In this document: one piece after another, positions 2,880-26,827 of the stretch
Numbering within the stretch: position 1 is the stretch's first letter
Layout of the letters: the number at the start of each line of letters is the position of its first letter
NCBI GenBank assembly: GCA_017640485.1
Contig: JAEPQP010000017.1
Location: 1 to 32,897, forward strand
Direction of reading: 5' to 3'
DNA from: Phycisphaerales bacterium
Lineage (GTDB): Bacteria; Planctomycetota; Phycisphaerae; Phycisphaerales; UBA1924
DNA length: 32,897 nt
Position numbers and translations under genes: made by a program
Notes under the pieces: model-generated
What the model saw: only the letters and a program-made list of their open reading frames with translations
Told to the model about the DNA's origin: nothing
Databases searched by the model: none

Positions 2880-2944
<65 letters not shown>

Positions 2945-2963
<19 letters not shown>

Positions 2964-4264
2964 TTCTCGTCATTCCGCAAGGAGTGGCAACAAGATGAAG
3001 GGACCGGCATAAACGCTGGTCCTTTATCTATTTGCGCATTGTTTCCGTAGTTGTTGCGGACTGCTGCCGCTTGCTGCTGCGACGCGTTTTGCGACACAAG
3101 TGCGCCGCTTTCTGCGCCGCTTTGTGAAGCGGTCTTTTGCCCCGGACTGCGAGTTGGCTCATTTGCTGCACGGGTGAAATCTTCATCACGGACCATATGA
3201 TAATGAGCTTCAGCAACCGCATGGGTATGCCCCATCCATGATGTGCACACCGCACTCGGATACTCCGCTGCCAGCTCAGTCACCCGACTGGCTCGCATCG
3301 CATTGAACGCACGCGGCCAAGGTTCGATACCGGCTTTTCGAATGATGCGTTTGAACTGGGTGCCAAGGTTTGCGGCTGGATCTCTGTACCGACCCACTAC
3401 ATACTCACTGCCTTCTGGGGCGAGCTCGTAGGCATCGATCAGGACCTTCCTGAGTTCTGGGAACAACGGGATGATGCGTTCGGACTTACCAGCATGATGC
3501 TCGGTCTTAGGTGAACGCACACGCATCCGATCCTCGTCCCAGTATACATCCGACCACTGAACTCGCAACACTTCCGATGGACAGCGGAGACCACCGAAGC
3601 GAGCGAGGGCGATGATGCACCTCCAGTCCGCGTCTGGAGCCGCGTTGATGAGCTTCTGGGCAATCTCTGGGTAGACATAGAACAACCGATCACGATTGAT
3701 CTGAGAGCCGCCCCGGACGCCTTCGAAGGGATTGGACGGAATCATCTCCCATCGAACCGCTTGCTTGAAAAACATCCGAGCGATGGAGATCTCTTTGGAT
3801 ACCTTCGCTGTGGAATATTCCTTGTCCACGAGCCATGCTCGATATTGATCACAGTCATGAGGCGTGATCAAATCAATCACTTGATCTGAACCGTATCGTT
3901 CAAGCAAGAGCCGGCGGGACTGGGCGTATCGAGTCCGTGTGGTCTCCTTGACACTCATGGTCGCAAAGTACTGTTCAAGCAATGTACCAAGTGTGTGCGT
4001 CTCGGATTGCTGGCGATTTTCGACTAAGCCGGCATTTACCAGCTTCGCATGCATCTCGTCTGGAAGATGGGTAAGCCATTGAGCGGTTTGAGAATCGATA
4101 CTCGTGCCCGTGCGCTGTGCATCGATCAATCGCTCGATTCGCATCAAGAACGATTCAGCGGCTTTGACATTGAGCTTACCGAGCCTGATAGTGCGACGCT
4201 TGCCCGATGTGTCCATAAACAACAGGCGTTTGGTTCCGTTTTTATCTCGTGATAATGAAGCCAT
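2945..4264 (-). CDS. int: Tyrosine recombinase (island integrase)
   Basis: This 439-residue integrase should catalyse recombination between the island and the tRNA-Leu 3' end. An N-terminal DNA-binding region (about 1-60) and a SAM-like core-binding domain (about 90-180) precede the catalytic domain. Catalytic residues can be assigned: R227 in FGGLRCPSE, K253 in SPKTEHH, R324 in NAMRASRVTEL, H346 in WMGHTHAV and nucleophile Y355 in AEAHYHMV. The box II His is replaced by Asn321, as is common in planctomycete integrases. The region after residue 375 is low-complexity (GAESGALVSQNASQQQ) and ends in NGPGGT, the reverse reading of the tRNA tail. The start ATG is two bases after the stop of the upstream replication gene, so it is the last gene of that operon. 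The stop lies inside attL, and the frame would be longer in the excised circle. Confidence 0.93.
3101..3118. repeat. Candidate left arm-type repeat
   Basis: TGCGCCGCTTTCTGCGCC holds two TGCGCC hexamers 12 bases apart. The same 18 bases with one mismatch occur in the same orientation at 26762-26779 near the right end. The pair could be arm-type binding sites for the integrase or excisionase; this is inferred. The left copy lies in the integrase coding region. Confidence 0.35.
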
Positions 4265-4266
4265 GA

Positions 4267-6879
4267 TTATTGATCCTCTCCTGTAGAGTGTACCTGGTAG
4301 CGCCCAATCGCGCCAGTGTCAGATTGCGGGATTTCGGGCGAATCAGGCCCCGAAGTGTCAGTTTCAGTGATGCAAGGTGGAGATTGGTATTCTGCGTGCA
4401 GAACGAACTCTTGCGTTCTTCCTCTCGGCTTTCGGCCTTGGAGGATGCCGAATCCTGCCTCGACGAGCTGCTTGATTCTCGCTTCTGCTTTGCTCGTTTC
4501 TTTGTACTTAGCAAGACCTCTTGAGAATTCACGGACAGTGACTGCGCCCCCTTTCTTGCCGATCCATTCCACAGCCTGAAGATTCTCTAGCGTCTCATGG
4601 TCCATCTCAAGAATCGTGTACACGCGTTTGGTCTCGGCCTTGAACCACTCGACCAACCTGATCGCCGCATTGATTGAATCAGTATCGATATGTTCAGGGT
4701 CCATGAGTGTGGGATCATTTACGGCTTCGCGGACGAGGTGGATGATCAACGCGAAGCGTGCGACATAGCACTCCAGCTTCGACCACGCTGCACCGATGTG
4801 TTCGGGCTGGTGCTGAATCGATTCGTTATGGACATCGACGAACGCGCCGAACGCTTGTTTGGCATCGGGGTCAAGGTCGATAATGTGCGGATTGGGTTGC
4901 TCCTTGCTCGCGGTCGGCTCGACAGTGCACATCGTGTGCGAGTACAAACGCTTGACCAGTGTGTTCATTTGATCTGAAACCACTGGATCGATCTCATTGT
5001 TGGTCCAACGCTTGGAAGGCGCTGCGGGCATCGCGAACAAGAATCGTGCGATCAACCCGCTTTCGAGGTTCTTCTTGGTGAGCAACCGATTGAGGATGCC
5101 CGGCTGGGTACCTCCTGCAATGCTAAGCGCGGCGCGTGGGACAAAGATCGACTCGGTAGTTTTACGATCAACACTGACCGGTCTGGCGTGAAAGAGTTCA
5201 ATCCATCTGGAAGCGCCCCCGCTGCTGTTTCCTCCGCTGTATCGTTCGAAGTCGAACCACGCTGCGAGCTCGTCTCTTTTCTGGACGATACCGTGTGGAT
5301 TTGTTGAGATGAGCTCAATGGTGGCCTCGATGGTCGCGTCATCGATGATGCATCGACTGGGTCGCGGTACTGAACCATTACCAGCGTTTTCATGAGCCTG
5401 ATAGCCTCCAGAATCTTGCTTCTGTGCTTCGAGTTCTTGCTGATACTCCAAGAACATCCGCTCCTGGATCAGCTCCAAAGGTCTAAACGCGAGCGCGATC
5501 GCGGGGCTTTTGCAGGTCCCGGACTTCCCGACGATGCACGACCAGACCACGCAAGGCTCTGTCCAGCCGTACTTAAGCCGGACCTCGTGCGTGTTCCCGA
5601 TTGATCCTGCGAGCATGGAGAGCACAGGAATCGCGATGTATGATGGATCACACCCGATCGCTTTCGCGCCTTGCATGATGTAGCACTTGACGGGATCCGG
5701 TAGTAGATCGACCGGGAACGGTTGGTAGATCCTCGCTGTTCTCTCGCTGTTCTTGGCTGCGAAATCTTCTTGTCCACCAGATATGCATTCAGGTTCAGTC
5801 TGCTGAATCAACGCATCGAGTCTCTGTGAAAGGCGCTGAGCATCACCCGATTCCATCGCAAGCACATCAACCAGATCAGCCCCGCTTGGGAGATCGCTCC
5901 ATGCTTCGGAGAGATCGACCACCCGCACCGACGCAGAGCCGCTGCACAACTCAATCAACTCATCAGCGTAGCGATCTCCGGCTTCATCCAGATCCGGAAC
6001 AATCACCACATGCTTCCCATTTAGCACGCTCCAGTCACACTTCGAGGCGCTCTTGGCCCCATGCGGGCTCGTGGTCGCGGTGTACCCGCACGCGATTGCC
6101 GCTTCTGCTGCCTTCTCACCCTCACATACAAGCACGAGCTCATGCGACTGACCATCCTTGTGGATCAACCCAGGCAGCCCATACAACGGACGAGGCGCAG
6201 GCATCCCCGTCAGCTTCCATTGACCCCCACTCCCATGATCATGTCCATCATCACGAAAGAACGAGACCGGGCGGATCTGCTTGCCTTTCGGAGTATCCCA
6301 TCGCAGCACCAAACCCACGAGAAGCCCAGCCGCATCGTGGTAATCCCAGCGATGATCAAAGCGACCCAGACTCCGTTCGTACACCGCGATCGCATCTTGG
6401 AGCTCGGCGTAACCAGTCTCTTTCCGACTGCCCTCCCCACTGACACTGACACTTCGAGGCTTCTGGACAGAGAAATCACGGCAACTGTCAGTGACACCGC
6501 TGTCATACGCAAAGAGATCCCTCATGCTCATCCCGAGCGACGCGATCACTGATTCTGTGCGACATCCAGCGTGGCAATGCACGATTACCGAGCCATCCGA
6601 TCCGGTGTTGATACTCAACGACGGGTTTCGGTCCTCATGGGCTGGACATCGGCACGCCCACCCATCGCCGGCTATTTTGGGTTGATGTCCTTGCAATCGC
6701 AGTGCATTGAGGAACCGATCAAGCGGACTGATCAAAAGTTTGGTAGACTGTGTGTGATCAAAGTGTGTTTGGCCGCCCTCGCTTGCCAGCGGGGATGTGT
6801 CTTTTTTGGATCGCCACTCTGATTGTTCCAGAGATCGTCTTTGATCGGTCTGCTTTCGATTTGGTAACTCTCGGCTCAT
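4267..6879 (-). CDS. Zinc-finger/Toprim/DUF3987 replication protein (primase-helicase-like)
   Basis: This 870-residue protein looks like the replication protein of a mobile element. Near the N-terminus is a CHC2-type zinc-binding site as in DnaG-like primases (C76, C78, H81, then C102, H103 and C106 in HCHAGC). A Toprim domain follows at about 248-330, with VCEGEKAAEA (acidic E253 and E255) and VVIVPDLDEAG (D296, D298). The second half is a DUF3987 region, a P-loop-like module found in many phage and island proteins; GKSGTCKS at 451-458 looks like a Walker A motif. The start codon overlaps the stop of the upstream HTH gene (ATGA at 6876-6879), and a G-rich ribosome binding site (GGGGGTGAGG) precedes it. 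Primase plus helicase function is inferred from domains. It may let the excised island replicate. Confidence 0.85.
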   Translation of the reverse strand: MSRELPNRKQTDQRRSLEQSEWRSKKDTSPLASEGGQTHFDHTQSTKLLISPLDRFLNALRLQGHQPKIAGDGWACRCPAHEDRNPSLSINTGSDGSVIVHCHAGCRTESVIASLGMSMRDLFAYDSGVTDSCRDFSVQKPRSVSVSGEGSRKETGYAELQDAIAVYERSLGRFDHRWDYHDAAGLLVGLVLRWDTPKGKQIRPVSFFRDDGHDHGSGGQWKLTGMPAPRPLYGLPGLIHKDGQSHELVLVCEGEKAAEAAIACGYTATTSPHGAKSASKCDWSVLNGKHVVIVPDLDEAGDRYADELIELCSGSASVRVVDLSEAWSDLPSGADLVDVLAMESGDAQRLSQRLDALIQQTEPECISGGQEDFAAKNSERTARIYQPFPVDLLPDPVKCYIMQGAKAIGCDPSYIAIPVLSMLAGSIGNTHEVRLKYGWTEPCVVWSCIVGKSGTCKSPAIALAFRPLELIQERMFLEYQQELEAQKQDSGGYQAHENAGNGSVPRPSRCIIDDATIEATIELISTNPHGIVQKRDELAAWFDFERYSGGNSSGGASRWIELFHARPVSVDRKTTESIFVPRAALSIAGGTQPGILNRLLTKKNLESGLIARFLFAMPAAPSKRWTNNEIDPVVSDQMNTLVKRLYSHTMCTVEPTASKEQPNPHIIDLDPDAKQAFGAFVDVHNESIQHQPEHIGAAWSKLECYVARFALIIHLVREAVNDPTLMDPEHIDTDSINAAIRLVEWFKAETKRVYTILEMDHETLENLQAVEWIGKKGGAVTVREFSRGLAKYKETSKAEARIKQLVEAGFGILQGRKPRGRTQEFVLHAEYQSPPCITETDTSGPDSPEIPQSDTGAIGRYQVHSTGEDQ

Positions 6880-7115
6880 GCCTCACCCCCCTCGTGTTGT
6901 GACTTCCGTTCAATAAACGCTTTCAGCTCGCTCACCAAGATCAGGACTGCTCGATCCAGCTTCGCATGCGGGATCTCTCCCTGACGGAGCAGTTCTCGGA
7001 GTGTGCGCTCAGAGACCCCGATCATCTCCGCCGCTTTCGCCGGGCGTACCGAGATCGGTTCTGGTGTGGATCGCTTCTGTTGGTTCAAACTCTGGAATGT
7101 GTTGTGTTGATTCAC
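6876..7115 (-). CDS. Small HTH protein, excisionase/AlpA-like
   Basis: This 79-residue protein has one MerR/excisionase-type helix-turn-helix, at about residues 20-65. The pattern is VRPAKAAEMIGVSERTLREL, then a wing region (GEIPHAKLDRAVLILVSEL) ending in KAFIER. Such proteins bend DNA at attachment sites or switch on the excision operon. The start is GTG at 7115, overlapping the stop of the preceding gene (GTGA), with AAGGGGG upstream; its own stop overlaps the next start (ATGA). The three genes are therefore translationally coupled, and the place directly before the primase and integrase supports a control or excision role. Which of the two small HTH proteins is the true excisionase cannot be told from sequence. 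Confidence 0.78.
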   Translation of the reverse strand: MNQHNTFQSLNQQKRSTPEPISVRPAKAAEMIGVSERTLRELLRQGEIPHAKLDRAVLILVSELKAFIERKSQHEGGEA

Positions 7116-7321
7116 AGTGCACCCCCTTGGCGTTGTGAATCGATCCTCTCGATTTCATTCTTGAGCCGATCGACATCCGCCGGCGCGAAGATCCTCGCGA
7201 TCCCGGCACGAGCAATGGGCTTGATCCCCCGCGAATCAATCAGGTACTCGATGCGATGCCGGTCCACGCTCAGATGAGCCGCGATCCGTGCGACGGTCCA
7301 GAGAGTGTTCTCTGTGTTCAT
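7112..7321 (-). CDS. Small HTH protein, first gene of the excision operon
   Basis: This 69-residue protein has a winged-HTH/excisionase-like pattern: WTVARIAAHLSVDRHRIEYL, then IDSRGIKPIARAGIARIFAP and a short helix (DVDRLKNEIERI). The frame extends upstream to 7471, but the ATG at 7321 is preceded by AAGGAGG at ideal distance, so I chose that start. It overlaps the next gene by four bases. Along with that gene it probably regulates or assists excision. The ribosome binding site is part of a small potential hairpin (7326-7339). Confidence 0.72.
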   Translation of the reverse strand: MNTENTLWTVARIAAHLSVDRHRIEYLIDSRGIKPIARAGIARIFAPADVDRLKNEIERIDSQRQGGAL

Positions 7322-7325
7322 GTTC

Positions 7326-7339
7326 TGCCTCCTTAGGCA
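7326..7339 (-). promoter_or_regulatory. Hairpin covering the ribosome binding site of the excision operon
   Basis: On the minus strand TGCCT-AAGG-AGGCA forms a five-base-pair stem whose loop and 3' arm are the Shine-Dalgarno sequence AAGGAGG of the 7321 start. An overlapping palindrome, AGGCAATGCCT (7335-7345), could compete with it. A translational switch is possible but unproven. Confidence 0.3.
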
Positions 7340-7425
7340 ATGCCTGGCCCGTGCTGGGTAGTGTCTACCTGGAATCACATGGGCCTTCCACCCATGCCAG
7401 TGAGCGCGCAAAAGACTCCATGAAC

Positions 7426-7438
7426 GCTGAAAATCAGC
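7426..7438. promoter_or_regulatory. Short inverted repeat upstream of the excision operon
   Basis: GCTGA-AAA-TCAGC is an inverted repeat in the gap between the excision operon and the gene ending at 7517. A further palindromic TCAGCTGA lies about 40 bases to the right. Either could be an operator for the small HTH proteins. Support is weak; no promoter hexamers were convincingly found. Confidence 0.2.
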
Positions 7439-7516
7439 GATCAGTGTGCAGAAACGACGATATGTGTGCATTCTCAGCTGATGAGTGATTGCATCTCTGA
7501 GCGCGAGCGATCGCGC

Positions 7517-9406: not shown

Positions 9407-9413
9407 CTGAATC

Positions 9414-9860
9414 ATGCTGACCCGTATCTTCGTCCCCATCGCGATGTTCCTCCTCTACTGCACCAGCAGCAGCGCGATCGAAGGGTCATCTCATCAGCAC
9501 TCAGCATCGCAGACACGCAACTCACAGGTCCATGTCCACATAGACCAACACTGTGGTGTTGCCCATCTACACACGCATTCAAGCCCGAATGCTCCCGACA
9601 CAATCAATCCGCATCACGCATGCGAAGAAGAACATGACTCCGACGACCATTGCTGCGTCGATCATCACGAGTCGGAATCCAAACCAGTCGCATCGCTTGT
9701 GAATCCACAAGACCGTCCCACCGATGCCACTCCAGCGGCGCTTCCAAACCTCTCCCCAGTGCTCCAGACCGTCCCCAGCACACCAACCCGCTGGTTGCCT
9801 GTGCGCCAGCGCCCCCCGGATCATCTCGTGCTCCTGCGCACATTTGTTATGCTCAACTGA
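9414..9860 (+). CDS. Secreted His/Cys-rich small protein, probable metal binder
   Basis: This 148-residue protein starts with a signal peptide (residues 1-21, VPIAMFLLYCTSSSA). The mature part is rich in His, Cys and acidic residues: SHQHS, HVHIDQHCGVAHLHTH, HHACEEEHDSDDHCCVDHH. These clusters suggest periplasmic binding of Cu, Zn or Ni. The C-terminus is Pro/Thr-rich and ends in a short hydrophobic-basic tail. No known domain is recognised. It opens the first efflux gene set, 97 bases before the TolC-type gene, under the promoter at 9378-9406. A protein of the same length and layout but with more Cys opens the second set at 16600. Function is inferred from composition and context only. Confidence 0.65.
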   Translation: MLTRIFVPIAMFLLYCTSSSAIEGSSHQHSASQTRNSQVHVHIDQHCGVAHLHTHSSPNAPDTINPHHACEEEHDSDDHCCVDHHESESKPVASLVNPQDRPTDATPAALPNLSPVLQTVPSTPTRWLPVRQRPPDHLVLLRTFVMLN

Positions 9861-9957
9861 CCCAGCACGCCTTGCGTGTTGTATGCCGTCGCCCTATGTC
9901 GTCCTCTAGACATGCCGACGCTCTTGTCTCGTTGTCATTCACAAATGGAGCACTTCA

Positions 9958-11394
9958 GTGCAGTATATCCCCACCCCCCGCTCGCTCATGCTGGGGCTCG
10001 TGCTGGTCATCTTATCCGGTTGCCAGACCTATCAACCAAGACCACTCGACCCACAGTCACACCTGGAAGCGTTCTCAGCGCGATCAGTCCATGACCAGTC
10101 CCTCAAGACCTTCATCGACTCGCTTGACAACCCGAGCCAAAACAACCGCGCGATCGATTCAAGCCCCTACGACCCCTCCGACGGCATCTCCCTGAACGAA
10201 GCCGAACGCATCGCGCTGTATTACAACCCCGACCTCCGAATTGCAAGACTCCAAGCGGGTCTCGCGTCCGCTGACGCTACACACGCCGGTATTTGGGATG
10301 ACCCCAGTCTCAACTTCGATGCTCTTCGCATTACCGATGGAGGAAACACCCCCTGGATCATTGGTGGTTCACTCTCCATTACCATCCCCATCTCAGGGAG
10401 ACTCAGAACCGAGAGAGCACGAGCCGATGCCCAGACCAAAGCGTCCCTCTCTGCGATCGCTCAAGCCGAATGGAACACACGCATCGAGCTGCGCAGAGTA
10501 TGGAACCAATGGAGTGCCGCTCATCTCCGCGCCCAGCGCAACGAGCATCTCCTTGAATCCATCATCGGTCTCGCATCCTCAACAACAAAGCTCGCCCAAG
10601 CCGGTGAACTCCCCTCGACACAAGCACTCCTCTTCGAGATCGAGCGCGTCAGCCACATCCAGTCGATCGCAAGACACCGCGTCCAAGCAACGATGCTCAA
10701 GCACAAACTGCACGCGATCATGGGTCTCCCTTCTGAAGCGGAAGTGGAACTGACCCCCGCGATCTCCACTGATCCCGTTGCATCACCGCCGAGGTTCGAG
10801 CACATCGTTGAGCACCATCCATCGCTCTTGCAACTGCGTGACGAGTACGCGATCAGCGAAGCCTCGCTCCTCCACGAGATCCGCAAGCAGTACCCCGATC
10901 TGACTATTGGCCCTGCGTATGAATCCGAGCAAGGCGAATCCCGCATTGGTCTCGTCGCCGGCATCCCACTTCCCATCCTCAACTCCAACAAACAAGGCAT
11001 CGCCCGCGCCCGAGCCCAAAGAGAACTCGCGCGTGGTGTCTACGAAACACAGCTCGAAAGACACCGAAGCGCTTTGGCCGTCGCACTTCTTAACGCAAAC
11101 AGCGCCCAGCGGCAACGCACCCAGATGGAATCCACACTCGTCCCGCTCGTTGACAAGCAGCTCACCGATGCCCAGCGTCTCCTCGAACTCGGAGAGAGCG
11201 ACGGGCTCGTCCTCCTTGAATCGCTCCAACGCGCCGGACAAACAACCAACGAGATCATCGACGCTCGTCTCGCTGAAGCAATGGCAACCACCGAGCTCGA
11301 AGCACTGATTGGACTAATCCCTTCCACCCAACTGCCCCCCAGCACCCACGCCCAACCCATAAACAACCCCACCACACCGGAGGGAACAGAATGA
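9958..11394 (+). CDS. TolC-family outer-membrane efflux lipoprotein
   Basis: This 478-residue protein is the outer-membrane channel of a tripartite metal efflux pump (CzcC/CusC type). It has a lipoprotein signal with lipobox LSGC (Cys22), so it should be acylated. Two outer-membrane-efflux repeats of long helices follow. They include ISLNEAERIALYYNPDLRIA near 75, the typical entry motif, and the second half starts near 280 (HHPSLLQLRDEYAISEASL). The start is GTG at 9958, preceded by GGAG eight bases upstream. The stop overlaps the adaptor start (ATGA), so the two are coupled. The partner pump is the RND protein at 12789. Substrate cannot be told from this component. Confidence 0.88.
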   Translation: MQYIPTPRSLMLGLVLVILSGCQTYQPRPLDPQSHLEAFSARSVHDQSLKTFIDSLDNPSQNNRAIDSSPYDPSDGISLNEAERIALYYNPDLRIARLQAGLASADATHAGIWDDPSLNFDALRITDGGNTPWIIGGSLSITIPISGRLRTERARADAQTKASLSAIAQAEWNTRIELRRVWNQWSAAHLRAQRNEHLLESIIGLASSTTKLAQAGELPSTQALLFEIERVSHIQSIARHRVQATMLKHKLHAIMGLPSEAEVELTPAISTDPVASPPRFEHIVEHHPSLLQLRDEYAISEASLLHEIRKQYPDLTIGPAYESEQGESRIGLVAGIPLPILNSNKQGIARARAQRELARGVYETQLERHRSALAVALLNANSAQRQRTQMESTLVPLVDKQLTDAQRLLELGESDGLVLLESLQRAGQTTNEIIDARLAEAMATTELEALIGLIPSTQLPPSTHAQPINNPTTPEGTE

Positions 11395-12776: not shown

Positions 12777-12788
12777 GGAGCACGAACC

Positions 12789-15956: not shown

Positions 15957-15976
15957 TTCCATAGGAGTTTTATCAA

Positions 15977-16459: not shown

Positions 16460-16508
16460 GCAGGTCACTTAGGCAATATTCTGTCTTCTATTCAACAAAT
16501 ACCATTCT

Positions 16509-16579: not shown

Positions 16580-16599
16580 CTCTACTAGAGCGGAGCGTT

Positions 16600-17046: not shown

Positions 17047-17133
17047 AGACCCGACCTGTAGGGAAGGTACGCGCACTGCGAACCGATCCCCAGTCGAATC
17101 TCTTCCGTTCCAACTCACACCAGGACCCTTGTT

Positions 17134-18573
17134 ATGCACAGATCCATCCTGCTCGCGTGCGCCTCTTCATTGATGCTCACAAGCTGCACGAGCGACCCGC
17201 TTTCGCCGCGCCCGGCGCATGCACTGACTCGATCGCTCGACGACACTCTCAGCGCTGAGCCTGTCCCGTCTCGATTCAGAGACGACGCACGCTCCGAAGA
17301 ATCAACACACAGAATCAGCGAGATTGTCACAGCGGATACATCCCCCGATGACATCGTGCAGCTCGCGCTGTACCGATCCCCCGAACTCGAGAGCGCGTAC
17401 CAGCAATGGGTCGCGATGTCCGAGCGTGTCCCTCAAGCGAGGGCGCTTCCGGATCCACGATTGAATATCGGGTTCTTTGCCAACGAGGTCGAGACACGCG
17501 TTGGTGCTCAACAAGCGCGGATCGGGATCTCTCAGCAGCTCCCTTGGTCCGGGAAGCTGCGTGCGTCGGAGGAAGCCGCGGCTGCAGAAGCGCGTGCGGC
17601 ATGGGTCCGCTATACCGCGATCGAACGATCCATCACCCGACGAGTCGTGACCGCTCTCTACATGCTCCACGAACTGGACGCGACCATCGAGATCACGCGC
17701 GAGAGCCTTGAGCTGCTGTCATCGTTCGAGGACTCGATCCGCTCGCGTTTCCGCGTCGGAGGAGGGTCGCACCCCGCACTTGTGCGCACGCAAGTCGAGC
17801 TGGGGATGCTCGAAGACCGACTGGTTTCGCTGGGATCCGCGCGATCAACGCTCGTTGCACAGCTCAACGCACTGCTTGATCGCTCGCATGATTCCACGAT
17901 CCCAGTGCTCAGCGAGCTCCCTGTCCCGATCCTCGATACTTCGCTCCAAACGCTGATCGCACAGAGCGAACGCACCAACCCAACGCTCGTAGCACTCAGC
18001 GAACGCATCAGCGCACAGCAGTCGCGCACCAAGATCGCGCGATACGCGAGCAAACCCCAGCTCACGCTCGGCGTCGAGACCATCTTCACAGACGACGCAA
18101 GCAATCCGAGCATCGCTGAGAGCGGAGACGATCCGCTGCTACTGACCTTCAGCGTGAACCTCCCGATCTGGCGCGACAAGTACGACGCGCAGGTCCAAGA
18201 GTCCATCGCTCAACGCCTCGCACTCGCGCATGAACGCCAGTCCACACGCAACGACCTGAGCACACGAATCGTCCAGTCGCACTTCGACTACACCGACGCA
18301 CAGCGTCGAGTGGAACTCTACGAGCACACCCTCATCCCCAAAGCAACCGAATCCATCCGCACAACCCTCGCGTCCTTCCGCACGGGTTCAGAGGGCTTCA
18401 CCGACCTGCTCGACGCTCAAAGAACACTGCTCGAGTTTCAGCTCAACGCGCTCCGCGCACGCACAGCGCAAGGGGTCGCGTTGGCGCAGCTCCATGAGTT
18501 GATCGGGATCACCAACGCGAGTGTCGAGCAGTCCATCACCAGACCTATCCAGCCACTGGAGAACGAGCAATGA
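17134..18573 (+). CDS. cusC: TolC-family outer-membrane lipoprotein of the Cu/Ag efflux system
   Basis: This 479-residue protein is the outer-membrane channel component of the second pump. Its lipobox is LTSC (Cys18). The first outer-membrane-efflux repeat starts near residue 70 (SPDDIVQLALYRSPELESAY). It contains the family motif ARIGISQQLPWSGKL, common in CusC/CzcC-type channels, and the second repeat begins near 270 (SERTNPTLVALSERISAQQ). The end overlaps the CusB-like adaptor by four bases (ATGA), supporting a common operon. AGGA lies eight bases before the ATG. The symbol rests on the copper-type partners downstream, not on this sequence alone. Confidence 0.86.
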   Translation: MHRSILLACASSLMLTSCTSDPLSPRPAHALTRSLDDTLSAEPVPSRFRDDARSEESTHRISEIVTADTSPDDIVQLALYRSPELESAYQQWVAMSERVPQARALPDPRLNIGFFANEVETRVGAQQARIGISQQLPWSGKLRASEEAAAAEARAAWVRYTAIERSITRRVVTALYMLHELDATIEITRESLELLSSFEDSIRSRFRVGGGSHPALVRTQVELGMLEDRLVSLGSARSTLVAQLNALLDRSHDSTIPVLSELPVPILDTSLQTLIAQSERTNPTLVALSERISAQQSRTKIARYASKPQLTLGVETIFTDDASNPSIAESGDDPLLLTFSVNLPIWRDKYDAQVQESIAQRLALAHERQSTRNDLSTRIVQSHFDYTDAQRRVELYEHTLIPKATESIRTTLASFRTGSEGFTDLLDAQRTLLEFQLNALRARTAQGVALAQLHELIGITNASVEQSITRPIQPLENEQ

Positions 18574-20564
18574 AATCACCACGCATCCCCGCACCTGTCC
18601 TCTGGATCTGGAATCACACCGCCGCGTTTGTCGCGTTGGTGCTGATCGCACTTGCGTTCATCGTTGGGATCCGATTGGGAACCACGCCCGACCCTACTGC
18701 CAGTCCCCCCTCACATGCACACGAGAACGCGGGAAGTGTCAGTGACAGTGGTGACATGACCAGTGACAGTACTCCCCAGATGTACACCTGCTCGATGCAT
18801 CCAAGCGTACGGCTCCCTGATCCGGACGCGAAGTGCCCCATCTGCTTTATGGAGCTGATCCCAGTCCGAGACAATGACACGGGTGATCCCAACACCCTGG
18901 TCCTCTCAGAGTCAGAAACCGTCTCGGCCCGCGTCCAAACAACTAGGGTCTCGCGCTATGTCCCAACCAGCACCATCCGACTCTTCGGGAAAGTCCGCAT
19001 GGACGAGACCACTGTTGAACGCATCAGCGCCTACTTCCCAGGACGCATCGAAACTTTGTACGCAAACTTCCTCGGTTCTCGCGTCAACCAAGGCGACCAC
19101 CTCGCGGAGATGTACTCCCCCGAACTCCTCACCGCGTTCGAGGAGCTCAGGCAGACCGCTCACGCCGCAGAGCGATCGTCTTCAATGAGCGAGATCGTGC
19201 GTGAGAGTTCAGTGGAGACGCTCAACGCTTCGCGCGATCGGTTGCGACTCTTTGGGATCGATCCCGATCTCATCGAGCGGATCGAGAACGATGGATACGA
19301 CGAGGACACCTTCAGCATCGATGCACCACGCGGCGGGACCATCACCCACATCGCTTCTCAGGAAGGCGCGTATGTCCAGACCGGGGATCCCATCCTGACC
19401 ATCGCGGATCTCACCCACCTCTGGATTGACCTCCAAGCCTACGAATCTCAGATCAGCAAGATCCATTGGGGTCAACGCGTTGGATTCAGTGTCGAGTCGC
19501 ATCCTGGAGAGCTGTTCGAGGGACGCGTCTCGTTTATCGATCCGATGATCGATCCATCGACCCGGACCGCTGCGGTCAGAGTTGCGTTTGAGAATCCCCG
19601 ACGCATACTCAAGCCGGGCATGTTCGCGAGCGCGACCATCAGCGTCCCACTCGATGGCAACCACCGATCCATCGCTCCAGAAATCCAAGGCCGATGGGTC
19701 TGCCCGATGCATCCGACAGAGATCCACGACGATCAGGGAACATGTACGATCTGCGAGATGGACCTCGTCCCAGTCGAGTCACTCATCGAGCAATCACAGG
19801 AGCATGCACAGTCAACGCCCCCGCTTGTAGTCCCATCGAGCGCCGTCCTTTTTACCGGCACCCGATCGGTCGTCTATACCCAGACCGATGACGAGAACGG
19901 ATTCCGCTACACACCAGTCGAGGTGACTCTCGGACAACGCGCCGATGACGCGTACATCGTGCTCGATGGTCTCAAAGAACACGACCGCGTCGTGACCCAA
20001 GGCGCGTTCAGGATCGACAGCGCGATGCAGATCGCGTCCAAACCAAGCATGATGTCGATGAAATCCGAATCCAATGACACCACTGTCACTGCCACCTCCC
20101 TGCCTAGCACATTCAAAACGGGGGTTACTGACAGTGTCAACGCATACCTCGATGCGCAAGAAGCTCTCGCAGACGATGACCTCGATGCGTTCAACACCCA
20201 CGCACAACAGCTCATCAGTGTGCTTGATTCGATCGCAACCGACGGACTCCTCGGAGAAGACCTGAGCATCTGGCGCAGAGCATCGCGTGATCTGCGACCA
20301 AACGCTCCCTACGACGACATCGAGCGAGCACGCGCCGACTTCGAACCAATGAGCAACGCGGTCTTCACGCTCATCGATCAGTTTGGTACTCCAGAAGACG
20401 CAGCGGTCCATGTCGCGTATTGCCCAATGGCGTTCGACTTTGAAGGAGCCGACTGGCTCCAGCGCACAACCACCATCGACAACCCCTACTTCGGATCCTC
20501 CATGCTCCAGTGCGGCGAGATCCTCCGCACCATCACATCAACTCACAACCACGGGGGTGACTGA
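18570..20564 (+). CDS. cusB: CusB-like periplasmic adaptor with two heavy-metal-binding motifs and DUF3347 tail
   Basis: This 664-residue adaptor is anchored by an N-terminal membrane helix (about 15-36). A heavy-metal-binding motif follows at 71-99: MYTCSMHP, then KCPICFMELIPV (C74, M76, H77, C89, C92, M94). The adaptor core (barrel, lipoyl, short hairpin) spans about 115-360. A second metal-binding motif lies at 375-402, WVCPMHP then TCTICEMDLVPV. After the membrane-proximal part comes a DUF3347 domain (about 500-650) with AYCPMAFDFEGADWL and NPYFGSSMLQCGEI, whose Cys/Met residues may bind copper. The typical motif has CGMDL; here it is CFMEL and CEMDL. It overlaps the channel gene by four bases and ends one base before the pump ATG. 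It should load Cu(I)/Ag(I) into the pump. Confidence 0.92.
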   Translation: MKSPRIPAPVLWIWNHTAAFVALVLIALAFIVGIRLGTTPDPTASPPSHAHENAGSVSDSGDMTSDSTPQMYTCSMHPSVRLPDPDAKCPICFMELIPVRDNDTGDPNTLVLSESETVSARVQTTRVSRYVPTSTIRLFGKVRMDETTVERISAYFPGRIETLYANFLGSRVNQGDHLAEMYSPELLTAFEELRQTAHAAERSSSMSEIVRESSVETLNASRDRLRLFGIDPDLIERIENDGYDEDTFSIDAPRGGTITHIASQEGAYVQTGDPILTIADLTHLWIDLQAYESQISKIHWGQRVGFSVESHPGELFEGRVSFIDPMIDPSTRTAAVRVAFENPRRILKPGMFASATISVPLDGNHRSIAPEIQGRWVCPMHPTEIHDDQGTCTICEMDLVPVESLIEQSQEHAQSTPPLVVPSSAVLFTGTRSVVYTQTDDENGFRYTPVEVTLGQRADDAYIVLDGLKEHDRVVTQGAFRIDSAMQIASKPSMMSMKSESNDTTVTATSLPSTFKTGVTDSVNAYLDAQEALADDDLDAFNTHAQQLISVLDSIATDGLLGEDLSIWRRASRDLRPNAPYDDIERARADFEPMSNAVFTLIDQFGTPEDAAVHVAYCPMAFDFEGADWLQRTTTIDNPYFGSSMLQCGEILRTITSTHNHGGD

Positions 20565-20565
20565 G

Positions 20566-23500
20566 ATGAACACCCAAGCTCACCCAAGCCTCCTGGGACG
20601 CATCGTCCGCTTCTGTCTGACTCAGAAACTCGTGGTCGCGATCCTCTTAACAGGGATGGTCTTCTGGGGAGTCCTCGTCGCCCCCTTCGACTGGTCGATC
20701 GGGAATCTTCCGCGCGACCCTGTCCCAGTTGACGCGATCCCCGACATCGGAGAGAACCAACAGATCGTCTTTACCGAATGGGCCGGACGCAGCCCACAAG
20801 ACATCGACGACCAGATCTCCTACCCGCTCACCGTCGCGCTCATGGGTATCCCAGGCGTCAAAGACATCCGCTCCTATTCCGTCTTCGGATTCTCAACCAT
20901 CTATGTCGTCTTCGAAGAAGACATCGAGTTCTACTGGTCCCGCTCGCGCGTCCTCGAAAAACTCAACGCGCTCCCTGCAAACACCCTCCCCACCAGCGTC
21001 TCCCCGATGCTCGGCCCCGACGCAACCGCACTCGGACAAGTCTTCTGGTACACCCTCGAAGGACAAGACGACCAGGGGAACCCGACCGGTGGATGGGACC
21101 TCGATGAGCTGCGAACCATCCAGGACTTCAATGTCAAGTACCTCCTCTCAGGTGTCCAATGCGTCTCGGAAGTCGCCTCCATCGGAGGATTCGTCCGCGA
21201 GTACCAGATCGATGTAAACCCCGACGCGATGCGAGCTACCGGGATCACACTCCCGCAGGTCATCAGCGCAGTGCGCCAATCCAACCTTGATGTCGGAGCG
21301 CGGACCATCGAGGTCAACCGCGCCGAGTATGTCGTTCGTGGGATCGGGTTCATCGAATCCGTCGAAGACCTGCAGAACACCGCGATCGTCGCTCGTGATG
21401 GTCAACCCATCCTTCTCACCCAGATTGCAGAGGTCGGGACCGGTCCAGCACTTCGACGAGGGGTCCTGACCAAGGAAGGCTCCGAAGCCGTCGGAGGCGT
21501 GGTCGTCACCCGATTCGGTGAGAACCCGATGGCCGCGATAGAACGCATCAAATCCAAGATCAACGAAATCGAGTCGGGACTCCCATCCAAAGTCCTCGAA
21601 GACGGCACCGAATCCCGCGTCACCATCGTCCCCTTCTACGACCGATCCGGACTCATCAACGAAACACTCGAAACACTCAACTCCGCGATCAAGCAGCAGG
21701 TTCTCATCACGCTAATCGTCGTCATCCTCATGGTCATGCACCTGCGTTCAAGCATCCTCATCGGAGCGATGCTCCCCATCGCAGTGCTGGGAACTTTCAT
21801 TGGGATGAAACTCTTCAGTGTCGATGCCAACATCGTCGCACTCTCAGGGATCGCGATCGCGATCGGGACCATCGTGGACATGGGGATCGTCCTCTCCGAA
21901 AACATGCTCCGCAAGCTCGAGGATGCAGCAGAAGACACATCCAGACTCGAAACCATCTACGAAGCAACCATGGAAGTCGGAGGCGCGGTCCTGACAGCGG
22001 TCGCAACCACCATCGTTGGATTCCTCCCAGTGTTCACGATGACGGCTGCTGAGGGAAAGCTGTTTAAGCCCCTCGCGTACACCAAGACCTTCGCGCTGAT
22101 CGCATCGATCGTGATCGCGCTGACGATCCTTCCAAGCATCGCTCATGTGCTGCTCGGATGGTCACCACGCAAGGGAGTGATCGCACGCATCGCGAAGTCC
22201 TCAGCAGCTCGTGTTCTTGTGTGGTCCATCAACATCATCATCGTGCTGCTTGTGCTGATACTCCTGACTCGCTCCTGGGAGCCCATCGGTCCTGAGCCTG
22301 GACTGATAGGAAACGCGCTGCTGATTGCGCTGCTCATCGCGTTGCTGCTCGGAGTGTTCTGGATCGTCCGTCTCGCGTTCCCGCGCGTGCTTCATTGGAC
22401 ACTCCGTCATAAGCTCGTGTCGATGCTCCCAGTCCTCGGCCTCGTCCTGACAGGCGCAAGCGTCTGGCTCGGATTCGACCGCGTCTGGGGATGGTTGCCC
22501 GATCGTCTCCGCGCTACCCAACCGATGGTCCAGCTCGCCCACGACTTCCCAGGCATGGGCTCCGAGTTCATGCCCGCACTCGACGAGGGCGCGTTCTTGT
22601 ACATGCCCACAACAATGCCCCACGCATCGATCGGGGAAGCGACCGACATCCTCAAGGAACTCGATCGTCGCATCATGTCCGTCCCAGAGGTCAAAAGCGC
22701 AGTAGGCAAGATCGGACGCGTCGATTCCCCCCTCGATCCCGCGCCGATCTCGATGGTCGAAACAATCATCGAGTACCAGAGCGAGTACATCGTCGATGAG
22801 CACAACCGACGGATCCTGTTCGCATACGACGCTGATCACGATGAGTTTCTCCGCAACGAGCAAGGCAACCTCATCCGGAATGACGAAGGCAAGCCCTATC
22901 GACAGTGGCGCGATGAGATCGATTCACCCCAAGCAATCTGGGACGAGATCGTCGAAGCCGCGCAGATGCCGGGACTCACCAGCGCGCCCAAACTCCAGCC
23001 CATCGAAACACGCATCGTCATGCTCCAGTCTGGATTCCGCGCCCCGATGGGAATCAAGGTCTTCGGCCCATCACTCGAATCTATCGAATCCTTCGGATAC
23101 CAGCTCGAGAACCTGCTCAAGCAGATCCCCTCTGTCCAACCCGCAGCCGTCTTTGCCGATCGTGTTGTAGGCAAACCCTACCTCGAGATCGAGATCAACC
23201 GCGAGAAGATCGCACGCTACGGCCTGCAGATCGCAGACATCCAAGAAGTCATCGAGGTCGCGATCGGAGGCAAGACCCTGAGCATGAGCGTTGAGGGACG
23301 CGAGCGATACCCCATCCGTGTCCGCTATCAACGCGAACTGCGTGACCAACCGGACACACTGACCGATACCCTCATCGCAACACCACAAGGCGCGCAGATC
23401 CCGCTCCGCGAGTTCGCAGACATCATCTACAAGCGAGGGCCTCAGATGATTAAGAGCGAGGACACCTTCCTTGTTTCTTATGTGTTGTTCGATAAGCAAC

Positions 23501-24258
23501 CCGGATACGCTGAGGTCCGCGTGGTTGAGGATGCACGCGATTACATCAACGCGAAGATCGACTCCGGAGAACTCAGCGTTCCGCATGGAGTGACCTTCGA
23601 GTTCGCAGGCGCATACAAGAACCAGGTCCGCGCCTCCAAGACACTCGCGATCGTTCTTCCGCTGTCACTCGTGGTCATCTTCCTGCTCATCTACTTCCAG
23701 TTCAAGCGTGTGAGCGTCACCATGATGATCTTCTCAGGAGTCTTCGTCGCATGGTCCGGTGGATTCCTGATGCTCTGGCTCTACGCCCAGCCCTGGTTCA
23801 TGGACTTTGAACTGCTGGGAACCAACATGCGTGAGCTGCTCCAGATCCGCGAGTACAACCTCAGCGTCGCGGTCTGGGTCGGGTTCCTCGCGCTCTTCGG
23901 GATCGCAACCGACGACGGCGTCGTCATGGCAACCCGCATCGAGCAATCCATGCGCGAAGATCAACCTCAATCAATCGAAGCCATCCGCGCCAGCATCGTG
24001 ACAGGTGGTCGGCTCCGCATCCGCGCCGCGGTCATGACCAGCGCTACCACAATCCTCGCGCTGCTACCAGTGCTCACCAGCACCGGTCGCGGCTCAGACA
24101 TCATGATCCCCATGGCCATCCCCACCTTCGGAGGCATGGCCGTCGCATCAATTACCTGGTTCGTCGTGCCCATCCTCTATAGCTGGTGGGCCGAGTCCAG
24201 ATTCCGTATTCACAACACACTCGGACAATCCGAGCAAACACAAAGGAGTTCATCATGA
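20566..24258 (+). CDS. cusA: CusA-like Cu(I)/Ag(I) RND efflux pump, enlarged
   Basis: This 1230-residue inner-membrane pump is longer than usual (about 1050). The frame is open upstream to 20383, but ATG 20566 with GGGGGTGA before it gives the family N-terminus. The relay helix reads GIAIAIGTIVDMGIVLSENM with D438, CusA-like. The three Met residues that carry Cu/Ag in CusA are all in place: M680 in GAFLYMPTTM, M730 in PAPISMVETIIEY and M819 in ETRIVMLQSGF. Extra length comes from two added hydrophobic helices at about 551-603 and a hydrophilic insert at about 738-790 in the second periplasmic loop. Its stop overlaps the next start (ATGA at 24255). Cu(I)/Ag(I) export with the adaptor and channel just upstream is well supported. 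Confidence 0.94.
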   Translation: MNTQAHPSLLGRIVRFCLTQKLVVAILLTGMVFWGVLVAPFDWSIGNLPRDPVPVDAIPDIGENQQIVFTEWAGRSPQDIDDQISYPLTVALMGIPGVKDIRSYSVFGFSTIYVVFEEDIEFYWSRSRVLEKLNALPANTLPTSVSPMLGPDATALGQVFWYTLEGQDDQGNPTGGWDLDELRTIQDFNVKYLLSGVQCVSEVASIGGFVREYQIDVNPDAMRATGITLPQVISAVRQSNLDVGARTIEVNRAEYVVRGIGFIESVEDLQNTAIVARDGQPILLTQIAEVGTGPALRRGVLTKEGSEAVGGVVVTRFGENPMAAIERIKSKINEIESGLPSKVLEDGTESRVTIVPFYDRSGLINETLETLNSAIKQQVLITLIVVILMVMHLRSSILIGAMLPIAVLGTFIGMKLFSVDANIVALSGIAIAIGTIVDMGIVLSENMLRKLEDAAEDTSRLETIYEATMEVGGAVLTAVATTIVGFLPVFTMTAAEGKLFKPLAYTKTFALIASIVIALTILPSIAHVLLGWSPRKGVIARIAKSSAARVLVWSINIIIVLLVLILLTRSWEPIGPEPGLIGNALLIALLIALLLGVFWIVRLAFPRVLHWTLRHKLVSMLPVLGLVLTGASVWLGFDRVWGWLPDRLRATQPMVQLAHDFPGMGSEFMPALDEGAFLYMPTTMPHASIGEATDILKELDRRIMSVPEVKSAVGKIGRVDSPLDPAPISMVETIIEYQSEYIVDEHNRRILFAYDADHDEFLRNEQGNLIRNDEGKPYRQWRDEIDSPQAIWDEIVEAAQMPGLTSAPKLQPIETRIVMLQSGFRAPMGIKVFGPSLESIESFGYQLENLLKQIPSVQPAAVFADRVVGKPYLEIEINREKIARYGLQIADIQEVIEVAIGGKTLSMSVEGRERYPIRVRYQRELRDQPDTLTDTLIATPQGAQIPLREFADIIYKRGPQMIKSEDTFLVSYVLFDKQPGYAEVRVVEDARDYINAKIDSGELSVPHGVTFEFAGAYKNQVRASKTLAIVLPLSLVVIFLLIYFQFKRVSVTMMIFSGVFVAWSGGFLMLWLYAQPWFMDFELLGTNMRELLQIREYNLSVAVWVGFLALFGIATDDGVVMATRIEQSMREDQPQSIEAIRASIVTGGRLRIRAAVMTSATTILALLPVLTSTGRGSDIMIPMAIPTFGGMAVASITWFVVPILYSWWAESRFRIHNTLGQSEQTQRSSS

Positions 24259-25160
24259 ACGCAACACTACTCGCTTCGATCGTTTCCTGCACCTGCTGCG
24301 CCGGGTTCACCATCGCCCAGGATGGTCATGACAACCACGCCCATCACGCCCATGCTCAAAGCAATACCCCCATCAACGCGATGTGCCCGATCGGCAAGGA
24401 ACCCATTGTCGATGGTGTCCCAACAATCCAGTACAAAGGCAAGACCATCGCGTTCTGCTGTCCAGGTTGCGACCAAGTGTTCATGAACTGGGACGAATCA
24501 AAGCGTGATGCGTTCGTTGCTCTCGCTCAAGCAGGAAACGAACCGGGAGAGGCTCATGCTGAAGCAATCCCCGACACAGCAACTCCAATCAAGAGCCAAC
24601 CCTACACCCTCTCCACCTGCCCAGTTTCAGGTGAACCCCTCGGCTCGATGGGTGACCCAATCATCAAAGAGTACGACGGCCGAGAGGTTCGTCTTTGCTG
24701 CAAAATGTGCGTCTCCAAGTTTGAGAAGAACACAGACGCGTATTTCAAGAAGATCGACGAGAAGATGATCGCTGACCAGATGCCCTACTACCCGATGACC
24801 ACCTGCGCCATCTCAGGAGAGCCCCTCACTGAAGACGGCGAAGACATCGCGATCAACCTCATCCACGCGAACCGGCTCGTGCGCCTCTGCTGCACAATGT
24901 GCGTGAAGGATTTCAAGAAAGATCCAGCAGCATACATCGCAAAGATTGACCAAGCAGCCGCAGACGCTCAGCGGGAAGATTACCCCCTCGACAAGTGCAT
25001 GATCGGCGGAAAGCTGGGATCAATGGGCGAACCCTCCGAGATCGTCCTCGCGGGAAGACTCGTCCGCTTCTGCTGCTCGATGTGCGAACCCAAGGTGATC
25101 GAGAATCCCGCTAAATACCTCAACCAACTCGATGAGGCATGGGCGAAGCAGAACCCATAA
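24255..25160 (+). CDS. Secreted protein with four tandem TRASH/YHS-like Cys domains
   Basis: This 301-residue protein has a signal peptide (1-21; the frame runs upstream but AGGAG precedes the ATG at 24255) and a His-rich linker (DGHDNHAHHAHAQ). It then has four repeats of a Cys domain at about 41-92, 118-172, 180-235 and 244-297. Each has a first Cys (44, 122, 184, 248) and a CC-x2-C triplet (68/69/72, 148/149/152, 212/213/216, 273/274/277) preceded by a hydrophobic strand. The last three share the pattern R-x-CC-x-MC, and a conserved acidic/aromatic helix follows the second and third. This resembles TRASH and YHS metal-binding folds. It is coupled to the CusA stop (ATGA) and probably buffers or delivers Cu(I)/Ag(I) in the periplasm. 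Confidence 0.82.
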   Translation: MNATLLASIVSCTCCAGFTIAQDGHDNHAHHAHAQSNTPINAMCPIGKEPIVDGVPTIQYKGKTIAFCCPGCDQVFMNWDESKRDAFVALAQAGNEPGEAHAEAIPDTATPIKSQPYTLSTCPVSGEPLGSMGDPIIKEYDGREVRLCCKMCVSKFEKNTDAYFKKIDEKMIADQMPYYPMTTCAISGEPLTEDGEDIAINLIHANRLVRLCCTMCVKDFKKDPAAYIAKIDQAAADAQREDYPLDKCMIGGKLGSMGEPSEIVLAGRLVRFCCSMCEPKVIENPAKYLNQLDEAWAKQNP

Positions 25161-25267
25161 TCAGCAAATCTTCATTCCCACAACAATCAAGGTCGCATCC
25201 CGACCATCAACGGAGCAAAGAACAACCCAATCCAGCTGTCACACAGCCACACGAAATGGAGAACAGA

Positions 25268-25819
25268 ATGGAAACTGAAGAGCACCACGACACACTTAAA
25301 CAGCACGGATCACCCTACCTCCGATTCACGGCCATGATCACAACCTCTATGGTTGTGATGTTCTTCCTGATGTATCTCCACTCATACGACATCCTTGCCC
25401 ACGCTTGGTTCAGCGAGACCCGTCTCTTCATGACGCTGATCATGGGAGGAGGGATGATCTTCGTCATGCTCTTGTTCATGCTCAAAATGTACACAAGCAA
25501 AGCAAAGAACACGGCCGTCATTGCCATCGCGTTCCTCCTTCTCGCAGGAGGGATCGCGTTGGTCCGCTCGCAGATCACCGTCACTGGGACGGACTACATG
25601 GAGGGGATGATCCCCCACCACTCCATCGCGATACTGACAAGCGAGCGAGCAGATATCAAGGACGCCCGCGTTCGGAAGCTCGCAGATAAAATCATCGAAG
25701 CACAGCTTCGTGAAATCAAAGAAATGGAATGGCTGATCGCAGACATCAAAGCCAACGGCATCGCAACCACCGAATCGGAAGCCGAAGCTCGAGCGATACC
25801 AGAATTTAATCCAAAATAA
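25268..25819 (+). CDS. DUF305-family membrane protein
   Basis: This 183-residue protein has three predicted membrane helices (about 20-40, 52-73 and 81-98) and then a DUF305-type helical segment containing DYMEGMIPHHSIAIL (H117, H118) and a long charged helix (RKLADKIIEAQLREIKEMEW). The M-x-GM-x-PHH pattern is the hallmark of DUF305 proteins, often found near copper-resistance genes. The family's biochemical role is unclear; copper binding is suspected. The frame is open to 25139, which would overlap the previous gene, and ATG 25256 is also possible. GGAG seven bases before 25268 decides the start. It lies 107 bases after the four-domain protein and is probably cotranscribed. Confidence 0.8.
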   Translation: METEEHHDTLKQHGSPYLRFTAMITTSMVVMFFLMYLHSYDILAHAWFSETRLFMTLIMGGGMIFVMLLFMLKMYTSKAKNTAVIAIAFLLLAGGIALVRSQITVTGTDYMEGMIPHHSIAILTSERADIKDARVRKLADKIIEAQLREIKEMEWLIADIKANGIATTESEAEARAIPEFNPK

Positions 25820-25867
25820 CGGTGACAAACATGCTCAATCTCATGAGCACCAAATGGACAACAAAAC

Positions 25868-26629
25868 ATGAGTACTCAATACCAACTGACCATCCAAGGC
25901 ATGCACTGCAGCAGCTGCGAAAACAAAATCCGTGACGCGCTCGCGAAGATTGACGGCCTAAACACCGATGCAATCTCAGCAAAGTCCGGGAATGCTACAC
26001 TCCATGCGCCAACCAATGTCTCTGAGCAAGCAATCAGGGAAGCGGTCGAGAACGCAGGGTCCTATCAAGTTACCAAAATCGAACAAACTGATCTTGATAC
26101 TCCATCAAAGCAAAATCCACACCAAACCAGTCCGGCATCACAGGAAGAGGCAGCGGAGAGTCTGTACCCACTGTTCATGATCGTCGGGTTCATCGCTGGA
26201 GTCACGGTGCTTGTCGCATGGTCAACGCAACGCTGGGAAATCGAACCCATGATGCGCCATTTCATGGCCGGGTTCTTCATCGTGTTCTCATTCTTCAAGC
26301 TGCTCGACCCTCCAGGCTTCGTCTCCGCATACCGTGGATACGACCTCATCGCACGCAGATCCAAAGCTTGGGCATGGAGCTACCCCTTTGTGGAACTCGG
26401 ACTCGGCGTGATGTATCTCATGGCCTGGGCACCGGTGACAACAAACATCATCACACTCATCCTCATGCTCATCGGTGCTGCAGGTGTGCTCAAAGTACTG
26501 CTCAACAAACAAGCGATCCGATGCGCATGCCTTGGAACAGCACTCAATCTGCCCATGACCAAAGTCACGCTCGTCGAGGACCTGACCATGGCTCTGATGG
26601 CTGGAGGCATGCTAATCCTGATTGCATAA
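25868..26629 (+). CDS. HMA domain fused to a MauE-like membrane domain
   Basis: This 253-residue protein begins with a heavy-metal-associated domain (about 3-70) with the metal site GMHCSSC (C14, C17). A polar Gln/Ser-rich linker (about 72-98) leads to a membrane domain with four or five helices (about 100-120, 131-148, 170-190, 193-212, 232-252). The membrane part resembles MauE/DoxX-like proteins and contains a Cys pair RCACLG (C219, C221), as in MauE-type proteins that handle disulfides or metals. The fusion suggests moving Cu(I) or reducing power between cytoplasmic HMA and membrane Cys. No clear Shine-Dalgarno sequence is seen before the ATG. It is the last cargo gene before the right attachment site. 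Confidence 0.8.
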   Translation: MSTQYQLTIQGMHCSSCENKIRDALAKIDGLNTDAISAKSGNATLHAPTNVSEQAIREAVENAGSYQVTKIEQTDLDTPSKQNPHQTSPASQEEAAESLYPLFMIVGFIAGVTVLVAWSTQRWEIEPMMRHFMAGFFIVFSFFKLLDPPGFVSAYRGYDLIARRSKAWAWSYPFVELGLGVMYLMAWAPVTTNIITLILMLIGAAGVLKVLLNKQAIRCACLGTALNLPMTKVTLVEDLTMALMAGGMLILIA

Positions 26630-26635
26630 GTTGCC

Positions 26636-26827
26636 TCAATCCTCTGAGAGTTTCCGAATCTGCTGTTCAATGTGATCTCTGAGTTCACAAATGGATTGAG
26701 GATTGATCCGATCGATCAATGAGATCCAGCATTGTAGAGTTTTTACCGATTGCGCCCAATCTGCGCCGCATTCTGCGCCCCTATGATCGGATATTGGGCC
26801 TTGGGGCACCTCAGACGCAGTAGTTCG
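26636..26827 (-). other. Detached C-terminal coding segment of the island integrase
   Basis: These 63 codons and a TGA stop have no start of their own. In the excised circle (attR joined to attL) the integrase frame reads through the core repeat into this segment in phase. There the integrated stop TGA (complement of 2945-2947) is replaced by CGA at 26825-26827. The peptide starts RTTASEVPQG, contains GAECGADW and ends in a helix-like segment (WISLIDRINPQS, then HIEQQIRKLSED). It has a protein-like composition. Whether it is translated is inferred. Confidence 0.6.
26762..26779. repeat. Candidate right arm-type repeat
   Basis: TGCGCCGCATTCTGCGCC differs by one base from 3101-3118 near the left end, in the same orientation, and lies about 45 bases from attR. 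It may be an arm site for the recombinase. It also encodes GAECGA in the detached integrase tail, as the left copy encodes GAESGA in the integrase, so it could be a coding duplication instead. Confidence 0.35.

Follow-up and report, generated by a model that had tools for sequence, protein, structure and literature searches.

In the mobile island studied here, the integrase gene appears to span its own attachment site (attP), and the C-terminus of the encoded enzyme differs between the circular and the integrated state. As a matter of gene anatomy, this state dependence is well supported by the sequences compared. We put at about 0.8 the probability that the tail encoded by the circle only is a selected part of the enzyme; a role of its loss in biasing the direction of recombination, or in locking the island in place, is a more tentative proposal, held with less than even confidence. 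The island lies in the window, by which we mean the whole 32,897-nt stretch analyzed (contig C193 of genome G000). Coordinates of its features are collected in the table.

Table. Features of the island and its ends, in window coordinates
Feature	Position	Strand	Basis
tRNA-Leu(taa), restored host target; its T-loop gives the integrase stop in the integrated state	2880..2963	+	ARAGORN; T-loop comparison
Tyrosine integrase (439 aa as encoded after integration)	2945..4264	-	Pfam PF00589 + PF13102
Stop codon (TGA) closing the integrase frame after integration; reads CGA in the circle	2945-2947	-	sequence
attL core, 18 nt, same as attR core	2948-2965	.	sequence comparison
Terminator-like hairpin a short way past the tRNA 3' end; the integrase frame overlaps it on the opposite strand	2998..3025	+	fold
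Left direct repeat of putative arm type, GGCGCAGAAAGCGGCGCA, within the integrase frame	3101..3118	-	repeat search
DUF3987 gene directly upstream of the integrase gene	4267..6879	-	Pfam
HTH_17 protein, candidate directionality factor	6876..7115	-	Pfam PF12728
Small ORF, HTH-like by eye, without Pfam match	7112..7471	-	sequence
Cargo, mostly two RND efflux sets and heavy-metal-associated proteins	9414..26629	+	Pfam
Circle-only integrase tail, 63 codons; stop 26636-26638	26639..26827	-	in silico join
Tail end KTLQCW...IRKL, putatively helical	26648..26743	-	tail alignment; helix predicted from sequence
Right direct repeat of putative arm type, GGCGCAGAATGCGGCGCA, read as GAECGA in the tail	26762..26779	-	repeat search
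attR core, 18 nt	26828-26845	.	sequence comparison

The integrase frame has its start side at 4264 on the minus strand and reaches its TGA at 2947-2945. Plus-strand letters are TCA at 2945-2947 (TGA on the minus strand) and TCG at 26825-26827 (CGA). The initial annotation had claimed that circularization through the core replaces TGA by CGA (A2947 versus G26827), adding 63 codons in phase and extending the enzyme from 439 to 502 residues. Joining the ends in silico through the 18-base core confirmed this exactly: translation gave a frame of 502 aa, ending at the TGA at 26636-26638, in place of the 439 aa of the integrated form. The remaining two phases beyond the core run into stops after 27 and 4 codons. 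The attP core thus falls within the coding frame of the circular form, as it likewise does in joined relatives. The PF00589 match (residues 202-357) lies entirely within the integrated frame, and H354 and Y355 are invariant in the integrase alignment; residue 355 is probably the catalytic tyrosine, placed far upstream of the core. Integration changes the C-terminus alone, and the catalytic domain is intact in both encoded forms. Shuffling gave a p of about 0.05 for a 63-codon open frame in the window alone. A single open frame of this length is unremarkable by chance; its recurrence across related islands is remarkable.

A restored tRNA at one end, a 3' tRNA fragment at the other and an integrase gene mark the element as a tRNA-targeting island. 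Because tRNA-Leu(taa) covers 2880-2963, attL has the complete tRNA and attR the 3' fragment, and for the same reason the integrase TGA is T-loop sequence of that tRNA read on the opposite strand. Matches to this tRNA came from 20 of 21 genomes of the genus. The T-arm was read by pattern in nine tRNA-Leu loci, other loci being missed by the pattern. Six of the nine have the exact CTCC T-arm and GGCCC end, and all six, which include the window and the occupied site of G004, carry TTCAAG; the three with TTCGAG differ in the T-stem or the acceptor end. Among the A-bearing tRNA-Leu loci is that of G006, in whose genome there was no integrase match. A2947 is probably derived from the host and G26827 from the island, and a crossover on the right-hand side of 2947 agrees with this origin of the two bases. 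Strand exchange to the left of 2948, which the initial annotation recognized would keep the TGA in the circle, is spoken against by the identity blocks of 32 islands, which intersect 12 to 4 bases before the tRNA 3' end, corresponding to 2951-2959 in the window. A crossover right of the TGA is supported by these suggestive comparisons, short of proof, since mutation after integration could shorten identity blocks.

Distribution of related integrases was analyzed by comparative genomics. With the joined integrase as query at 1e-20, 46 of 81 genomes had matches; a second integrase query, at 1e-40, found them in 127 of 301 genomes of the order. A total of 62 related integrase loci were examined, window included (45 + 17). 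In 50 of these (35/45 and 15/17), ARAGORN called a tRNA at the 3' end of the integrase gene or close to it, encoded on the other strand; of the 12 loci without such a tRNA, 7 had a tmRNA in this position. A candidate attR was accepted in 40 of the 62 loci: 32 by tRNA match, one (the C187 island) via another contig, and 7 more. For the remaining loci, the contig or stretch ended first or the repeat was not found. A tRNA-matched attR was the longest exact match of at least 13 nt, picked irrespective of frame. One locus (G040_C57), in which a 42-nt attR match resembles a tRNA cluster and a stop precedes the core, was excluded beforehand from all counts. The 32 tRNA islands come from 29 genomes, span 3.7 to 39 kb and occupy tRNAs for Phe, Val, Ile, Leu, Glu and Lys.

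Some of these islands bear individual mention. A second related island in the genome of the window lies in tRNA-Ile on contig C187 (L007, 2711-4042), with its likely attR on contig C170 (L073) at 3306. In the islands of G150, G128, G038 and G022 (L207, L204, L115 and L116-L117, respectively), the core resembles the 3' end of tmRNA and the tail architecture is kept; a tmRNA was called in G150, G038 and G022 and none was called in G128. C-termini such as GLEPRTPAFSMPCSTN come from reading a tRNA gene in antisense, and databases may hold many of this kind.

In all 40 islands with a candidate attR, 35 or more in-phase codons followed the core before the frame closed. In the 32 tRNA-matched islands, every in-phase tail was 35-122 codons long, with a median of 66, compared with medians of 34 and 26 in the other phases. 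Joining the C187 island to C170 gave an in-phase tail of 58 codons. The seven further islands, of which four or so have tmRNA-like targets, were all open in phase, and five carried the tail motif; one of the seven (G068_450), for which attR rests on 13 nt only, showed only a weak likeness to it. The motif, DPxLAxVxxAWPxLPxxIRAxIxAMV, fits 18 of 32 tails in its strict form. Two islands depart from the pattern. In G010_C77 a TAG interrupts the integrase gene before the core and the tail itself is open, and in G026_C16 (L104, L185) the motif occupies a frame other than that of the integrase, which would be explained by a decayed copy or an assembly error.

Substitution patterns distinguish the integrase phase from the other two. 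Identity within the motif was 0.59, 0.67 and 0.44 at the first, second and third codon positions (18 islands), and motif pN/pS was 0.62 in the integrase phase (column bootstrap, 0.53-0.74) and 1.03 and 1.38 in the other phases. Pooled over 12 non-independent pairs, dN/dS was 0.21 for the catalytic body, 0.65 for the linker, 1.07 for the tail linker plus arm and 0.52 for the tail helix. Judged by these values, the motif and helix part of the tail is evolving as protein, and the tail linker and arm part appears free of protein selection. In one pair (G002/G010_C20) the tail had nearly no synonymous changes and many nonsynonymous ones, with no sign of protein selection. The tail of the window is itself divergent, with 12-33 % identity to other tails and an insertion within the motif. 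The extra peptide had been described as protein-like at the outset, and that description holds to the extent that the peptide joins a tail family with a protein-like substitution pattern. A Pfam search of six tails gave no family below E 0.09, and the tail was rejected as a known domain.

The same data bear on whether the tail frame could be a by-product, with attP constrained as DNA and one frame open by luck without selection at the protein level. The ratio of 1.07 over a tail linker and arm whose arm word is conserved as DNA would fit such an origin, as would the facts that no single tail is strongly significant alone and that 14 of 32 tails miss the strict motif. Openness in phase throughout the islands with attR and a pN/pS below 1 in the integrase phase only argue the other way, as do the occurrence of the motif across the phylum and inside viral integrase ORFs (see below). 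A by-product is largely contradicted by the phase-specific substitution pattern and seems highly improbable. A chance open frame was ruled out by recurrence together with that pattern.

A profile built from ten tails matched in 85 of 151 genomes of the order, and across the phylum the tail profile matched in 34 of 199 genomes, 28 of those 34 outside the order; there, the tail motif was seen alone, without the matching integrase. Among listed tail and integrase matches on one contig and less than 60 kb apart, a limit set after the lists had been seen and applied to coordinates copied by hand without use of attR repeats, the tail was on the same strand as the integrase gene and on its upstream side in 33 of 33. 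This placement is as expected for the opposite end of an island. In G179 (C10), a tail match stood 62 kb from the integrase, on the wrong side. Many of the listed unpaired tail-motif ORFs come, by eye, after peptides resembling antisense tRNA (L184 is among the exceptions), and many of them look like the attR of other islands. The divergent window tail was absent from the matches of tail profile A2 in its own genome, where the single match lay on contig C163. That match (G000:C163:16528-16623) perhaps marks the attR end of a third island.

Two short direct repeats flank the core inside the joined frame, and no further copy of them occurs in the window at up to 3 mismatches. The best 18-nt word shared by linker and tail DNA averaged 17.0 of 18 positions within islands (n = 32), 14.5 between islands (100 random pairs) and 13.0 after shuffling; in G251 and G053_C161 the best word is unlike the arm. 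The repeats are probably the arm-type sites of the integrase, because they are identical within islands yet divergent between islands. The peptide GAECGA of the window tail would then be such DNA read as protein, and it formed part of what made the tail look protein-like to the initial annotation. The C187 island contains DNA nearly identical to the hairpin at 2998-3025. By inserting, the island may supply its target tRNA with a new terminator in place of the old one, and the peptide KGPAFMPVPS would be the hairpin read as protein.

Related integrases were found on 36 viral contigs by an alignment-based scan; a scan with a single sequence as query gave no match. In two contigs with an identical integrase end (L245 and L246), the protein has 504 residues and ends in HPELGSLIEAWPDLSDEDRAAILEICAG with a short stretch beyond it; these loci gave neither a tRNA call nor a tRNA-like core. 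A third integrase (L250, 508 aa) has a stretch resembling T-loop and acceptor (by eye), followed by GELAEVAERWALLTAEERERVMRVVRGG; its tRNA match was 13 nt, against 12 nt in the wrong-strand control. A fourth (L263, 477 aa) resembles the tailed viral integrases but is shorter. The tail in these viral ORFs was recognized by eye, the motif-flagging pattern having flagged none. L245, L246 and L250 thus appear to carry catalytic domain and tail within a single ORF, and we infer that they may represent intact attP. Searches of plasmid and phage collections for free forms gave no match; in tblastn at 1e-10 with the window integrase as query, the phage collection gave none either.

Several other related viral integrases end soon after the catalytic tyrosine and have no tail; the tail is therefore unneeded for catalysis in general. 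On a tree of 57 sequences, spanning and short architectures were clustered and had changed at least four times, and some short labels (L249, beside the spanning L247) may be broken frames. The initial annotation had named related integrases lacking an in-phase tail as evidence against its proposal. The outcome is mixed: tail-less relatives do occur among these viral integrases, others of them have the tail within one ORF, and all 40 islands with a candidate attR keep the frame open in phase, one of them with its motif off phase.

Taken together, these comparisons lead us to propose the following mechanism. The circle would encode a 502-residue enzyme consisting of the catalytic domain, a linker containing the left arm DNA, the core, the right arm and a conserved C-terminal segment; in this form the core would be read as the antisense of the tRNA 3' end, and the final conserved segment looks helical. 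Integration would sever the last 63 codons and leave them at the far end of the island, while the integrated frame would enter the restored tRNA and end in the T-loop, so that the enzyme would have 439 residues and an intact catalytic domain. Both proteins are presumed to be translated. Integrase expressed from the circle would make use of the tail, most likely to aid formation or maintenance of the attP complex that integrates, and loss of the tail may alter activity after integration. Replacement peptides are dictated by the target tRNA, and the tail belongs to the island. Read most simply, the tail has its function in the circle, and its absence is the mark of the integrated state.

The tail may be selected for its work in circle-made integrase, with its loss a harmless, non-regulatory side effect of a compact module of integrase gene and attP. 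Peptides that the target tRNA dictates have probably not been tuned, and in 50 of 62 loci a tRNA target gene stands at the integrase 3' end or close to it, both in favor of such a module; a compact module, however, needs no spanning gene, because relatives that end before attP exist. We consider a harmless loss a serious possibility, at somewhat below even odds. The gene structure might alternatively serve as a memory of state, as in phage Mx8, with the full form favoring integration, the tail-less form weak or specialized for excision together with an HTH directionality factor, and the inserted state held by the arrangement itself. The Mx8 precedent, as far as the consulted passages describe it (PMC6070905), speaks for this, as do the HTH proteins encoded upstream of the integrase gene and the catalytic domain retained in both forms, but excision must remain possible if the islands move; we hold such a memory, too, at below even odds, slightly under those of a harmless loss. 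It is very unlikely that the tail destabilizes or inhibits the enzyme, limiting integrase in the circle, and that its loss stabilizes the enzyme once integrated. The position of the C-terminal segment behind a variable linker would allow this, but inhibiting an enzyme required for integration seems counterproductive.

At the place of the DUF3987 gene, the C187 island has an ORF of similar size. Between 9958 and 26629 are two RND efflux sets and YHS/TRASH, DUF305 and HMA-MauE proteins, suggesting that the cargo has a role in metal handling.

The integrase of phage Mx8 is IntP, and its integrated form is named IntX. In mycobacteriophages with integration-dependent immunity, attP lies within the repressor gene, and the product changes on integration; there the changed gene is a repressor, whereas here it is the integrase. 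For Mx8, the consulted passages place attP inside the integrase gene and describe a new 3' end after integration without inactivation of the enzyme (PMC6070905). The Islander paper, in its consulted part, likewise notes that the Mx8 and SSV integrases reach across attP (PMC4383910). The initial annotation was aware of no description of such an attachment site for this kind of island; in view of Mx8, the arrangement is not undescribed in principle, to judge from the consulted parts of both papers (PMC6070905, PMC4383910). The likeness to Mx8, compared by published description as far as it was consulted, lies in an attP within integrase coding sequence and a new 3' end with the catalytic domain kept. 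The islands differ from Mx8 in being many within one bacterial order, in their conserved circle-only motif and paired repeats in frame, and in using several tRNA targets and tmRNA; in the window, the stop comes from the T-loop of the host tRNA.

SSV-type (suicidal) archaeal integrases have the att site within the integrase gene, which is altered on integration (PMC8371274, consulted part), and share this with the islands. In SSV, the catalytic part is separated and the consulted passages describe the split gene as inactive, whereas integration of the present islands removes a short tail and spares the catalytic domain. The window integrase does not show the SSV-type split of a catalytic C-terminal part from the N-terminal part, and its Pfam matches are PF00589/PF13102, not Phage_integr_3. 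Islander islands lie between a restored tRNA and a 3' fragment, with crossover in the T-arm/acceptor region (PMC4383910, consulted part), and resemble the present islands in having the restored tRNA at one end and the 3' fragment at the other. In the consulted part of that work, attP-crossing integrases are the exception, Mx8 and SSV being named, and no conserved tail is described. The arrangement was described nowhere for Planctomycetota in the titles and abstract beginnings searched, which covered few subscription papers, and such silence is weak evidence of novelty. With Mx8 as precedent, what is new is the breadth, the conserved circle-only tail, the arm sites inside the frame and the tRNA and tmRNA targets.

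Integrases that span attP look widespread in planctomycete mobile islands. Possibly, although we would not wager on it, DNA state is written in the integrase of these elements, with integration favored when the island is free and disfavored when it is inserted, arm sites and core doubling as coding sequence, in a class of elements common in one planctomycete order and perhaps phylum-wide. The islands amount to a large natural collection of integrases whose short C-terminal segment comes and goes with each cycle of excision and integration. How tyrosine integrases distinguish attP from attL and attR would become testable with two proteins, four sites and many natural variants. The tail motif marks attR and offers a practical aid for locating the missing end of islands, and odd integrase C-termini would be explained as read-outs of antisense tRNA.
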